Origin: Desulfamplus sp.
GTDB taxonomy: Bacteria; Desulfobacterota; Desulfobacteria; Desulfobacterales; Desulfobacteraceae
Length of the DNA: 64,000 nt
Assembly (NCBI GenBank): GCA_015232455.1
Contig: JADFZQ010000001.1
Span: 434,001-498,000, forward strand
Direction: 5' to 3'
Part shown: positions 37,287-40,960 of the stretch, one piece after another
Position numbering within the stretch: the first letter of the stretch is position 1
Layout of the letters: every line of letters begins with the position of its first letter
Made by a program: the position numbers and the translations under genes
Notes under the pieces: model-generated
Seen by the model: the letters and a program-made list of their open reading frames with translations, nothing else
Database searches by the model: none
What the model was told of the DNA's origin: nothing

Positions 37287-37330
37287 TATGAATACTATAC
37301 TGTTCAAGGTCATAAATTTAGGTTTGCTAA

Positions 37331-38801
37331 TACTACTTTGTTAGATTACGTTTTTAAATATCGTTGAGTATCTTTTTCTCTCTGTCGATGTCTGTTTTGC
37401 ATTTGCAGCATTCTTTTTTGGATAAGCAGATCATCTTCTGTCAGCAATGCAATAATTAAGATTCTAATATCGCGATAACTGAGCAAGGGACAATTGTCTT
37501 GATTTTTGATTCTCTCCTTTACAATAAAGGAAAGGGCTAACATTACAAGTGCCATATGATGATGCCACCCATTCCATTTTCTGATTTGATAATCAGACAT
37601 ACCCAACTCACTTTTGCACTCTTGCAAAGACCGCTCTATCCAGTATCGTTGAGCTTGCATAAAGGCAAATTGTTTCACTGGAGTTTTGATTATGTCTGCA
37701 TTGCTCAAACCATATTTTATCTTGTTATCTGCCATGTTCCTGCTGATTACAAGAACCCTTTTTCTGGCACGCTCTTCCTTCTTATCCCATACCCACACTT
37801 CCATTAGATGTATGGACAATTTCAATTTTCCTTTTGTTGTATCTCTGACTTCAACTGTTTCCCATTGGGATTCATCAAGCTTTGCCTTGTAATTTTTTAC
37901 TTTTATGCTCTTCGCCAGAGTGCGGGGAAGAGTTGGTATTCTTCCTTTAACAGATTCTTTTTCTGGAATGAATATCTCTGGCTCTTGCTCATATATTTCC
38001 TGATCATTGTGAACATCAAACAGAAAAGTCAGCCCCATATCTTCAACAGCATAATTTAATTCACATCCATGACCATAAAAGCCATCTCCGCCAACCCAGC
38101 CAAAACGAACACCAGCAGCAATGTCTGCTTTGAGCATATCAAGTGCAAGTTCAAGTTTTGTTTTATGTTCACATTTATCTTCAGGAATCCCTGCCTTTGC
38201 ACATTTAGCACTATCGGCACTCCAGCATTCAGGAAGAAAAAGCCTGCAATTGATAATACTTGTATGATTTTGCCACACTAAACTTGCATAAACTCCTACT
38301 TGGCAGTTATCAACTTTACCTATAACTCCAGCATATTGCCGTGAAACTCCTACTGATTCTTTACCTTTCTTTAAATGGGCTGATTCATCAAATATATACC
38401 CCACATCTTTCACATCATAGCATGGCTGCATACTATACAGTTTAGAAGTATTCTGTGCAATTTCACGCATCAATCCAAATCCGTCCCAAGTCGAATCAGT
38501 TATAAATTGTTGTATCCGCTGATAACCATCTCCTTTCATATCAAGCTCCTCATGCAAACGTTCCATGTTTCTTCTGCCATGTTCTGTCTTTAGCAATCCT
38601 GAAATATACAATTCACAAAGTTCGCCAGAATCCTTTGTTGTTCTAAAAAAGAGGTTTCTGTATTCTCTTATATGAAAAGAGAGATTCCATAACATTCTCT
38701 TGAGAACGGGAGCATTTACATCATTATGTTTTATATTCATAAAAGCATAATAATGTAAAATAATTCAAAAATATATAAACTGGAAATCTAACAAAGTAGA
38801 A
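37331..38801 (-). mobile_element. Complete IS701-family insertion sequence
   Basis: About 1.47 kb. The terminal inverted repeats share CTACTTTGTTAGATT (37333-37347) and its complement (38785-38799). The element is bracketed by a 4-base direct repeat CTAA (37327-37330 and 38802-38805), which fits the CTAR target preference of IS701 elements. It carries one intact transposase gene whose stop codon lies inside the left inverted repeat. Outside the CTAA copies, GGTCATAAATT (37308-37318) and AATTTATGACC (38816-38826) are perfect complements, so the element landed in the loop of a pre-existing hairpin. Confidence 0.9.
37346..38740 (-). CDS. IS701-family DDE transposase
   Basis: 464 residues, full length for the family. 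The acidic residues expected at the active site can be placed in IFDESAHLKKGKESVG (about 117-132), WVGGDGFYGHGCELN (about 216-230) and YWIERSLQECKSELGMSDYQ (about 380-399), followed by WNGWHHHMALVMLA. A basic C-terminal tail follows. No frameshift or stop is present, so the element may still be active. The start ATG is 61 bases inside the right end. Confidence 0.92.
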   Translation of the reverse strand: MNIKHNDVNAPVLKRMLWNLSFHIREYRNLFFRTTKDSGELCELYISGLLKTEHGRRNMERLHEELDMKGDGYQRIQQFITDSTWDGFGLMREIAQNTSKLYSMQPCYDVKDVGYIFDESAHLKKGKESVGVSRQYAGVIGKVDNCQVGVYASLVWQNHTSIINCRLFLPECWSADSAKCAKAGIPEDKCEHKTKLELALDMLKADIAAGVRFGWVGGDGFYGHGCELNYAVEDMGLTFLFDVHNDQEIYEQEPEIFIPEKESVKGRIPTLPRTLAKSIKVKNYKAKLDESQWETVEVRDTTKGKLKLSIHLMEVWVWDKKEERARKRVLVISRNMADNKIKYGLSNADIIKTPVKQFAFMQAQRYWIERSLQECKSELGMSDYQIRKWNGWHHHMALVMLALSFIVKERIKNQDNCPLLSYRDIRILIIALLTEDDLLIQKRMLQMQNRHRQREKDTQRYLKT

Positions 38802-38859
38802 CTAACAAAAGGCTCAATTTATGACCGCTTGGAATATATCTGATAATTATAAAAATATA

Positions 38860-39156
38860 TTACTCCTTCTCTTTTTTTTCTTTTATATCTTGAAATCTAA
38901 ATACCAGCTCATCTTTTGCTACCATTCCAAGTTCATGTCTTGCAATATGTTCAATATAGGTAATATCACTCTTAAGACGATCGATTTTTCTCTCAAGCAC
39001 CCTGTTTGCTTCGTTTATTGCAAGGTTTTCGTTTATAATAGCCTTTTCCTGCAATCTTAGATGGTGAACATCCATAAAACCGTTTTTGCCATAAAGTATC
39101 AAAAACGCTAAAATTACCATCACTGATATAACTAAAAAATAGATCATCTTCTCCAT
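38860..39156 (-). CDS. ftsB: FtsB/DivIC-type septum formation initiator
   Basis: 98 residues. One membrane helix (about 5-22, IYFLVISVMVILAFLILYG) is followed by a coiled coil rich in Leu/Ile/Asn/Glu heptads (about 33-68), then IEHIARHELGMVAKDELVFR, the typical FtsB end. It is part of the FtsQLB cell-division complex in the inner membrane. The sequence around its 3' end is only 60 bases from the IS element. Upstream on the same strand is the dual-CXXC selenoprotein gene. Confidence 0.85.
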   Translation of the reverse strand: MEKMIYFLVISVMVILAFLILYGKNGFMDVHHLRLQEKAIINENLAINEANRVLERKIDRLKSDITYIEHIARHELGMVAKDELVFRFQDIKEKKEKE

Positions 39157-39204: not shown

Positions 39205-39393
39205 CTACAATCTGTTACAAGGAACATTTGCAAGCATCTCTTCCATATAGTCGTCCATCAAATCTTTATATTTATCTTCAGGATATTTTGTTTTGCATGA
39301 CCTGCAAATTAAATATACACTTCTTCAAGTTTTTCTAAGCATAAGAGGACTTCCACAAGATAAACATCTCCCTTTTTTTAATTTCTCCTCCAT
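39205..39393 (-). CDS. Dual-CXXC small selenoprotein with in-frame UGA
   Basis: Minus-strand reading from the ATG at 39393 gives 62 codons to a TAG, interrupted only by UGA at codon 23 (39327-39325). On both sides the frame encodes one coherent zinc-ribbon-like protein: CLSCGSPLMLRKT before the UGA, then RSVYLICRSCKTKYPEDKYK after it, with a charged helix to the end. The CxxC pairs are at Cys10/Cys13 and Cys30/Cys33. A hairpin with GG in its loop lies 22 bases after the UGA, as a bacterial SECIS should. From memory, a dual-CXXC small (seleno)protein family of this shape exists in anaerobic Desulfo-type bacteria. Function unknown, probably redox or metal binding. Read without Sec it would be a 22-residue peptide. 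Confidence 0.75.
39292..39308 (-). promoter_or_regulatory. Putative bacterial SECIS hairpin
   Basis: On the minus strand TTTGCAGGTCATGCAAA forms a perfect 6-base-pair stem with loop GGTCA. The loop begins 22 nt after the UGA of the small selenoprotein gene. The apical sequence GCAGGTC is the same as in the E. coli fdhF SECIS as I recall it, where GGU in the loop binds SelB. Confidence 0.65.
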
Positions 39394-39583
39394 AACTGCA
39401 ATAATCCTTTTATAATTTTACTATTTTCTGATAAAAAATTTTAATAATAGATGCTTAATAACTACATGATGATATATATCAAAAAAATAGAGTTATATAA
39501 AACAATAAAAAATTAACCTCAAACAAGCTAAATTGATGATTATACTTCGCACGGTTATAAATTGAGTTTTTATTCAATCTTTC
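39394..39583. other. AT-rich intergenic stretch
   Basis: Between the selenoprotein gene and the hairpin cluster that precedes argJ (total gap 39394-39748). Apart from the three hairpins at 39584-39674, I see no coding potential. The promoter of argJ and that of the selenoprotein/ftsB unit should lie here. Confidence 0.4.
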
Positions 39584-39674
39584 AGCCGATGGTTAAAACC
39601 ATCGGCTAAGTTAAAAGAAGTCCTCTTAAGAGGACTTGGAGAATTCAGCCCTGAAGCTTTTTTAGCTCTGGGCT
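39584..39674. repeat. Cluster of three consecutive hairpins (REP-like)
   Basis: Hairpin 1: AGCCGATGGTT (39584-39594) with AACCATCGGCT (39597-39607). Hairpin 2: a perfect 20-base palindrome at 39618-39637 (AAGTCCTCTT and its complement). Hairpin 3: AGCCC at 39647-39651 with GGGCT at 39670-39674 plus an inner AGCT pair, followed by an A run. It is more G+C-rich than its surroundings and resembles mobile REP-type palindromic units. It lies 75 bases before argJ. Confidence 0.6.
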
Positions 39675-39748
39675 AAAAAATAGATTAAAAGCTCAAATTA
39701 AGACCTTGTTGAGTATATATTTCAAAATGAAATAAAGGAGATATTTTA

Positions 39749-40960
39749 ATGAAGGGTTTTAAATTCAAAGGTATAGTTGCTGGTATCAAAAAAGATGGCA
39801 AAAAGGATTTAGGTCTTATCTTCTCGACTCGTCCAGCATCAGCAGCAGCACTTTTTACAGAAAACAGAGTTGTTGCTGCTCCTGTAATTATGGGACGTGA
39901 GAGAATCAAGTCAGGGGTTTGTCAAGCAGTTGTGGTAAATAGTGGTAATGCAAACTGTTTTACTGGAGATCAAGGTTTAAGGGATTCAATAGAGACAGCA
40001 AAATTTGCAGCTCAGGCTCTCCATATTCCTGAGGAGTTGGTTATGGTTGCATCTACAGGAGTAATTGGTGCACCTCTTCCTATGGAAAAATTTAGAGATG
40101 CAATGCCAGAGCTGACATCTAATATTTTGTCTAAAAATATTGAAAAACAGACTCAAATTGGCGAATCTGAACTTGAAGGGCTTGAAGATTTTGCTCAATC
40201 AATTATGACAACTGATCTTGCAATGAAAGTTGTTGTTAGAAAACATAAAATAAAGGGAGAAGAGTTTACAGTTGCTGGCGTTGCCAAAGGTTCTGGCATG
40301 ATAAGACCTAATATGGCTACAATGCTTGCGTTTATCTGCACTGATCTTGATATATCTTCAACACTTTTAAAAGCTGCTTTAAAAATAGCGTGTGACCAAT
40401 CGTTCAATCGAATATCTGTAGATGGAGATACAAGCACTAACGATACTGTTCTTGCTATGGCAAACGGTATGTCCAATGCTGTAGTTGAAGAAAGTGATGA
40501 TGCCTTAGAGTTTGAGAAAGTTTTAAATGAGGTGATGTTAGAACTCTCCAAGATGATTGTAAGAGATGGAGAGGGGGCAACTAAACTTGTTAAAATCGTG
40601 ATAAACGGTGCTGCAACTGCTCAAGATGCTTACAAAGCTGCTGAAGCTGTGGCTCACTCAAATCTTGTTAAAACAGCAATTTATGGGCAAGACCCAAACT
40701 GGGGAAGAATTACTGCTGCTGCTGGAAGATCAGGTGCAACAGTTGATCCTGATAAGATGGATTTAACTTTTGGCGATGTTGTTTTAGTAAAAAAAGGGGT
40801 GTGGCAGGGCGTTGAGGCAGAAAAAATGGCTGCTGAGGTTATGAAAAAGAGCGAACTTGATATTTTTCTTAATCTAAATATGGGAAAATTTAGCGATTTT
40901 TACTATTTTTGCGATTTTTCAGAAAACTATGTTAAAATTAATGCAAACTACAGATCATGA
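39749..40960 (+). CDS. argJ: Bifunctional ornithine acetyltransferase / N-acetylglutamate synthase
   Basis: 403 residues. It makes N-acetylglutamate and recycles the acetyl group in arginine synthesis. It has KKDLGLIFSTRPASAAALFT at the start and the self-cleavage region KGSGMIRPNMATMLAFICTD (about 179-198), with the nucleophilic Thr in MATML. SFNRISVDGDTSTNDTVLAM (about 222-241) and GQDPNWGRITAAAGRSG (about 314-330) follow. It is preceded by AAGGAG. Its TGA overlaps the ATG of the pseudouridine synthase gene (ATGA), so the two are translationally coupled. Confidence 0.95.
   Translation: MKGFKFKGIVAGIKKDGKKDLGLIFSTRPASAAALFTENRVVAAPVIMGRERIKSGVCQAVVVNSGNANCFTGDQGLRDSIETAKFAAQALHIPEELVMVASTGVIGAPLPMEKFRDAMPELTSNILSKNIEKQTQIGESELEGLEDFAQSIMTTDLAMKVVVRKHKIKGEEFTVAGVAKGSGMIRPNMATMLAFICTDLDISSTLLKAALKIACDQSFNRISVDGDTSTNDTVLAMANGMSNAVVEESDDALEFEKVLNEVMLELSKMIVRDGEGATKLVKIVINGAATAQDAYKAAEAVAHSNLVKTAIYGQDPNWGRITAAAGRSGATVDPDKMDLTFGDVVLVKKGVWQGVEAEKMAAEVMKKSELDIFLNLNMGKFSDFYYFCDFSENYVKINANYRS

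Follow-up and report, generated by a model that had tools for sequence, protein, structure and literature searches.

The closest described relative of the gene studied here is in print as hypothetical protein OS_HP3, which appears in tables of PMC13188914 and PMC9312934 and is credited in both to Zhang and Gladyshev 2007 (reference 60 of PMC13188914). The table of the review PMC13188914 gives its selenocysteine (Sec) context as RxU and also files a second entry, 'Hypothetical protein DW' with the context GxU, under NCBIfam model NF041197. The passages of PMC12013277 that deal with these proteins report 'Hypothetical protein DW' from two Desulfosarcina strains and name OS_HP3 of Desulfosarcina widdelii as the only known selenoprotein missed by deep-Sep in its test genomes. 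The NCBIfam model carries the name CxxC_Se_CxxC, 'dual CXXC motif small (seleno)protein'. Although the family is frequent in the class that we searched, the tables and passages in which we found it state no function for it. Outside the family, the best matches of our profile searches among known structures are to YfgJ of E. coli and Salmonella (PDB 2JNE and 2JRP), which differs in having two ribbons, no Sec and no [ND]R[LIF] end.

The window, by which we mean the whole stretch of 64,000 nucleotides of Desulfamplus sp. DNA that was analysed, carries one such gene with the following features:

39205..39393, minus strand: selenoprotein gene of the NF041197 family (OS_HP3), 62 codons and a TAG stop, from the ORF reading, the family profile match and the alignment
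39325..39327, minus strand: Sec codon UGA, codon 23, at a position where 110 distinct homologous cores have TGA (98), a Cys codon (11) or TGG (1)
39355..39366, minus strand: first predicted zinc knuckle CLSC, residues 10-13, with C10 and C13 invariant in a 100-sequence alignment
39295..39306, minus strand: second predicted zinc knuckle CRSC, residues 30-33, with C30 and C33 invariant, codons shared with the SECIS stem-loop and a codon bias
39292..39308, minus strand: bacterial SECIS hairpin, 6-bp stem TTTGCA/TGCAAA and loop GGTCA, overlapping the codons of the second CxxC (CRSC)
39208..39222, minus strand: conserved C-terminal tail PCNRL-COOH, R61 invariant, from homologue ends and the alignment

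The protein reads MEEKLKKGRCLSCGSPLMLRKT-U-RSVYLICRSCKTKYPEDKYKDLMDDYMEEMLANVPCNRL (window 39393..39205, minus strand). We put the probability that the Sec reading, the family assignment and a zinc-ribbon architecture hold together at about 0.85. The gene is real, and it is not new, its family being on record for sulfate-reducing bacteria; the selenoprotein interpretation of the original prediction, drawn up from the letters of the window, is well supported.

Conservation of the reading frame across the UGA codon

The gene had been described as a 62-codon minus-strand frame interrupted solely by a TGA at codon 23, and its existence is confirmed with coordinates, strand and length all exact. 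The start codon is probably the ATG at 39393, 11 nt 5' of which stands a Shine-Dalgarno-like AAAGGA, with an in-frame ATT nearer to it. The further claim of one coherent protein with two CxxC motifs spanning the UGA agrees with a match to the whole of NF041197 (73.1 bits, where the curated cut-off is 40; profile positions 1-53, 53 in all), in which Sec lies between the two CxxC motifs (C10-C13, U23, C30-C33), and with conservation of the downstream half in homologues. At E 0.001, NF041197 is matched by each of the 100 members in the alignment. Nothing essential separates the protein from OS_HP3: it scores above the cut-off, covers the whole profile and has Sec between two CxxC. In place of the RxU context of the review table it has RKTU, with K two residues before Sec; among the Sec forms that residue is R in 69 and K in 20, i.e. 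R or K in 89 of 97. The original prediction also held that standard gene callers miss the gene, which is true of callers that take TGA as a stop, as these return an ORF of 22 aa only, and untrue of the curated NCBI model that exists for exactly this family. The gene is a clean case in which a plain ORF caller breaks a gene and comparative evidence settles its reading.

Family matches were found in 251 of 389 genomes of the class at E 0.001, 237 of them above the cut-off, and every one of the matches listed from this search contains either one TGA or no stop. We examined 117 loci, comprising the window's own, 30 + 6 placed by searches and 80 fetched, a sample that leans to high-scoring matches, includes all 12 listed class-search matches without a stop and holds several copies of one MAG. 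Of the six named loci retrieved with the protein sequence, five belong to Desulfamplus sp. MAGs, at 77-98% protein identity, in keeping with a host in or near that genus. The gene is present in all 117 loci, and their 118 cores have TGA in 106 cases, a Cys codon in 11 and TGG in one (98, 11 and 1 among the 110 distinct cores), in line with the expectation that homologues would carry Cys or Sec at position 23. Ten of the 11 Cys forms come from one genus of the same family, the other from another family of the order, and Cys stands at the Sec position in 13 further loci of the phylum (L143, L165-L176). Both marks of a bacterial selenoprotein are thus found, namely an in-frame UGA with the frame conserved on its two sides and homologues with Cys at the Sec position (11 of 110 class cores and the 13 phylum loci).

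In an alignment of 100 sequences, made up of the window protein and 99 of the 109 distinct proteins, the invariant columns are C10, C13, C/U23, C30, C33 and R61; the ten proteins dropped were six with a long N-terminus, the near-copies L052 and L053, the truncated L047 and L063 with its Trp. Homologues were also expected to continue beyond codon 22, and they do so with a conserved C-terminal half and a common end point: 113 of 116 copies stop directly after [ND]R[LIF], two extend by one codon to a TGA and one is cut by a contig end (L104 and L080, which have no start by the rule used, are left out of this count). TGA is the terminator in 39 of the 113 copies with the common end, so that a single gene can give UGA two meanings, Sec and stop. 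A Cys directly precedes [ND]R[LIF] in 80 of 96 Sec forms (absent from 16) and in one of 11 Cys forms (absent from 10).

Two loci deserve separate mention. L063 (G241), in a single-contig genome, has TGG at the Sec codon, keeps a SECIS-like hairpin and lacks part of the first CxxC, which looks like recent decay or a sequencing error. In L113 (G206:C214) the selenoprotein gene occurs twice on one strand, at a distance of about 3.8 kb. A tblastn search with the selenoprotein against plasmid sequences gave no match, and a scan by eye of TGA codons in the window outside ORFs of at least 120 aa turned up no convincing second read-through selenoprotein.

Elsewhere in the phylum, other families hold a GxU-type subgroup close to NF041197 (22 loci, L138-L161 minus L143 and L150). 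Three of its members score 42-46 bits when Cys is substituted for Sec; judged by eye, its proteins lack the [ND]R[LIF] end, and the SECIS of some members appears to lie in another frame, its loop taking in the first Cys codon (L140, AGGTAAG-GTGT-CTTACCT). GxU-type and NF041197-type forms co-occur in some genomes. 'Hypothetical protein DW' shares the NCBIfam model of the window protein in the table of PMC13188914 and differs from it in its GxU context; the phylum subgroup may or may not be identical to it.

The SECIS hairpin and the selenocysteine machinery of the host

According to the legend of Fig. 2 in PMC13188914, a bacterial SECIS has an apical loop of 3-9 nt, an upper stem of 4-16 bp, G in the first two loop positions and a spacing of 16-37 nt, which we take as reaching to the loop. 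The window hairpin fits this model in its loop (5 nt), its stem (6 bp) and the G at loop positions 1 and 2 of GGTCA, the last in keeping with the GG rule invoked in the original prediction. The hairpin had been placed 22 nt downstream of the UGA, a distance that is correct for the loop and not for the stem, which begins at 16 nt; the spacing falls within the published range by either count.

With a score of 8.8, the window hairpin alone is weak evidence, and the evidence at the level of the family is strong. Across the 98 distinct TGA cores the mean hairpin score is 11.3 and falls to 6.4 when synonymous codons are redrawn (sd of the mean 0.33; maximum of 100 rounds 7.4), while the share of cores scoring at least 8 falls from 95% to 32%. 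The 12 non-Sec cores show no difference on redrawing (7.1 to 6.8, sd 0.85), a contrast that rests on cores mostly of one genus and few origins, the relaxed SECIS of the class Cys forms representing about two. Consistently, the SECIS dictates synonymous codons in the Sec cores: the codon that follows the first Cys of the second CxxC has G as its third base in 98 of 98, and Arg at that codon is AGG in 72 and CGG in 7, compared with AGG for 71 of 498 Arg elsewhere in these genes. Since the codons of the second knuckle contain the SECIS, part of what constrains CRSC in Sec forms is the RNA; at the residue after that first Cys, 8 of the 11 class Cys forms have Asp.

Support for the hairpin also comes from covariation. 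In an alignment of 36 columns and 97 distinct rows, 94.8% of cells are paired, a share that drops to 17-56% if one arm is displaced by 1-3 columns. Against shuffles that do not keep relatedness, two-sided changes number 31 cells versus 6.1 +/- 2.1 (none of 500 as high; 5-18 in the slid versions) and the covariation score is 0.290 versus 0.182 +/- 0.009 (again none of 500). Two further measures, the pairs with two-sided change (2) and the further pair types (10), lie within the shuffles, 443 and 174 of 500 being as high, because four of the six pairs vary on one side only. An Rfam scan of the window at gathering thresholds gave 0 matches.

The reading further depends on a host that can make and insert Sec, and the predicted selA, selB, selD and tRNA-Sec were all found in its own genome (4.35 Mb, 82 contigs, 98.5% complete). 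They score 593.8, 369.2, 363.4 and 74.4 bits, respectively, all above the cut-offs, which among 14 control genomes are exceeded by selA in 1, selB in 2, selD in 2 and tRNA-Sec in 5. ARAGORN reads the host tRNA-Sec as SeC with anticodon TCA and finds no tRNA within the window. The host selD gene served as an own-genome positive control for a UGA followed by a hairpin:

G000:C77:143397-144323 (L011): selD, itself a selenoprotein gene with one in-frame TGA

It reads GAG-U-ASK and has, 3' of the UGA, a 7-bp stem with the loop GGGAT, so that SelD, an unrelated protein, has in common with the window gene an in-frame UGA and a following GG-loop hairpin. Among 60 genomes chosen to cover Sec-form, Cys-form and family-lacking ones, selA is above its cut-off in 57; the exceptions are a below-cut-off fragment in a 63% complete genome and two genomes without selA (69% and 86% complete). 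Cys forms thus occur in genomes that still have selA. Altogether, comparative evidence, all of it from sequence, shows decoding of the UGA as Sec. In our model, codon 23 would be read by SelB with Sec-tRNA, guided by the SECIS within the codons of the second CxxC.

Predicted zinc-ribbon architecture and the comparison with YfgJ

We favour reading the protein as a ribbon with one zinc and with Sec at its beta-hairpin tip. An AlphaFold model predicts the strands expected of such a fold, at residues 16-21 and 26-30, joined by a turn at 22-25 that holds Sec; the model is poor (mean pLDDT 62, pTM 0.40), and binding of one zinc by the four Cys of the two CxxC knuckles is a prediction from the sequence and from this low-confidence model. 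With the same model, Foldseek returned 432 matches at E 10, none at or below 0.001 (best E 0.15), and a structure comparison gave a best Z of 3.8 with no Z of at least 5 and with YfgJ structures absent from its best 50 rows. Several Foldseek rows, none of them significant, superpose ribbons of the RPB9/RPA12/Rpc11 type over about 30 residues at an rmsd of 1.6-1.9 A.

Profile comparison points more specifically to YfgJ. The best PDB profile matches are 2jrp (E 6.5e-5), which we take to be the Salmonella YfgJ protein, and 2jne (E 0.001), also YfgJ, ahead of an RPA12 chain (E 0.0018). PF07191 (Zn_ribbon_6) is matched by 44 of the 100 family members at E 0.01; the window protein, at 16.6 bits, lies under the Pfam gathering score of 25 and is not a member, and it has one ribbon where PF07191 has two in tandem. 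YfgJ-type proteins were represented by four aligned sequences, one from Klebsiella aerogenes and, at 41-46% identity to it, those from Vibrio, Aeromonas and Citrobacter. All four have Cys at the place of Sec in the second ribbon. Three of them have the second-ribbon pattern CxxC-x9-C-x6-CxxC (CxxxH in Klebsiella), i.e. the same spacing as C10-C13-x9-U23-x6-C30-C33 in the window; the Citrobacter sequence has CC there, is one residue shorter and is off by one. The profile-profile match between the family and YfgJ (E 5.3e-7, probability 92%) runs over 33 gapless columns with a score of 35.8, which none of 100 permutations of the non-Cys YfgJ columns reached (median 13.7, maximum 25.3; this control was run for YfgJ against the family only). 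PF07191 was found at E 1e-7 in none of 118 phylum genomes.

We speculate that the family and the second ribbon of YfgJ belong to one class of zinc ribbons whose hairpin tip bears a fifth, reactive chalcogen (thiol or selenol), a unification that we consider rather unlikely. If true, Sec in anaerobic sulfate reducers would mark the active site of a zinc-ribbon protein kept as a Cys version in E. coli and its relatives. The alignment offers a genetically tractable Cys relative in which to search for the function. In a limited literature search, we did not find the alignment of Sec with the YfgJ cysteine in print; the family is known, and this alignment is a possible new element that remains a lead.

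Possible roles and the gene neighbourhood

In our model of the protein, the four knuckle Cys are predicted to hold zinc within the ribbon, and Sec23, amid basic residues (RKT-U-R) at the hairpin tip and distant from the zinc, would be a free reactive selenol. Cys versions at the Sec position imply thiol/selenol chemistry. We propose, tentatively and at somewhat less than even odds, a small cytosolic protein of thiol/selenol redox or metalloid handling in which Sec23 would be the reactive group and which would dock a partner via its conserved C-terminal tail, C[ND]R[LIF]-COOH in most Sec forms. In most members the C-terminal Cys may serve Sec as a resolving partner; the absence of this Cys from 16 of 96 Sec forms indicates that it is not essential and that an intramolecular Sec-Cys pair is not general. 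Its near absence from Cys forms possibly reflects loss of a Sec-Cys pair or ancestry, the contrast being confounded by ancestry.

Among the alternatives, the one that survives best has Sec as a fifth ligand that joins the Cys knuckles in holding zinc or another soft metal, making the protein a metal carrier and not a redox protein. The five invariant soft ligands of the 100-sequence alignment speak for it, as do HypA (E 0.0044) and LysW (E 0.74) as weak profile hits, whereas four Cys in two CxxC motifs are established to suffice for one zinc in zinc ribbons, the model places residues 22-25 in a turn (at low confidence), and the commonest neighbours, as judged by family representatives, include no conspicuous metal-related gene. 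On this balance we regard a fifth ligand as unlikely. Less probable again is a ribbon that binds nucleic acid or RNA polymerase and uses Sec as a catalytic or sensing residue at the hairpin tip, where TFIIS-type ribbons carry acidic residues. RPB9/RPA12/Rpc11-type ribbons are indeed the best neighbours besides YfgJ (RPA12 at E 0.0018), but zinc ribbons are generally alike, and both the E-values and the best Z of 3.8 are weak.

The neighbouring features of the gene in the window are:

38860..39156, minus strand: FtsB/DivIC-like gene (PF04977), downstream neighbour, at 5 loci that amount to 3 distinct sequences (window genome, L052 = L092, L053 = L091)
39749..40960, plus strand: argJ, divergent neighbour, seen at 50 loci out of the 115 that have a neighbouring ORF, the 50 including copies of one MAG
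37299-38836: insertion sequence that separates the ftsB-like gene from the HU/IHF-like one and encodes a DDE_5 (PF13546) transposase at 37346-38740, minus strand

A TruA-like gene (PF01416) lies co-directionally downstream of the selenoprotein gene at 40 of the 115 loci, and argJ and the TruA-like gene are both present at 25. Neighbour families were checked on one representative each, and the finer names AEC transporter, gpt and TruA are our assumptions. These adjacencies, together with the 48 nt between the selenoprotein gene and the FtsB-like gene in the window, could be taken to mean that the protein acts as a redox switch on one of its neighbours, be it the divisome protein FtsB, ArgJ or a TruA-type tRNA pseudouridine synthase. 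This has slightly less to recommend it than the polymerase ribbon and is improbable: ftsB adjoins in only three distinct sequences, BLAST recognised no argJ or truA within some 1.45 kb at 38 phylum loci (13 of close type, L165-L177), and shared descent of gene order could explain the remaining adjacency. An operon with ftsB was rejected as a general arrangement for the former reason, and the argJ/truA link, frequent within the order and not seen at the phylum loci examined, was dropped as a guide to function. As no neighbour recurs across the phylum loci examined, genomic context names no partner for the docking proposed above.

The weakest alternative, that the UGA is a true stop leaving a 22-residue peptide and a decayed remnant, has on its side the 22-aa standard ORF call and L063, whose TGG and partial loss of the first CxxC suggest that decay may occur in the family, but this pseudogene reading is rejected as extremely improbable by the one TGA or no stop of all matches listed in the class search, the conservation of the protein beyond the UGA, Cys replacement elsewhere and the covarying SECIS that follows.

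Between argJ and the selenoprotein gene lies a palindromic dispersed repeat (39560-39705) with the arms AAGTCCTCTTAAGAGGACTT and AGCCGATGGTTTTAACCATCGGCT; it has 38 matches in its own genome at E 0.001 or below, some of them at the same place on both strands, and is REP- or MITE-like. The relative L053 lacks the insertion sequence; when aligned, the L053 flanks show an overlap of 3 nt, which is what a 3-nt target duplication would leave.
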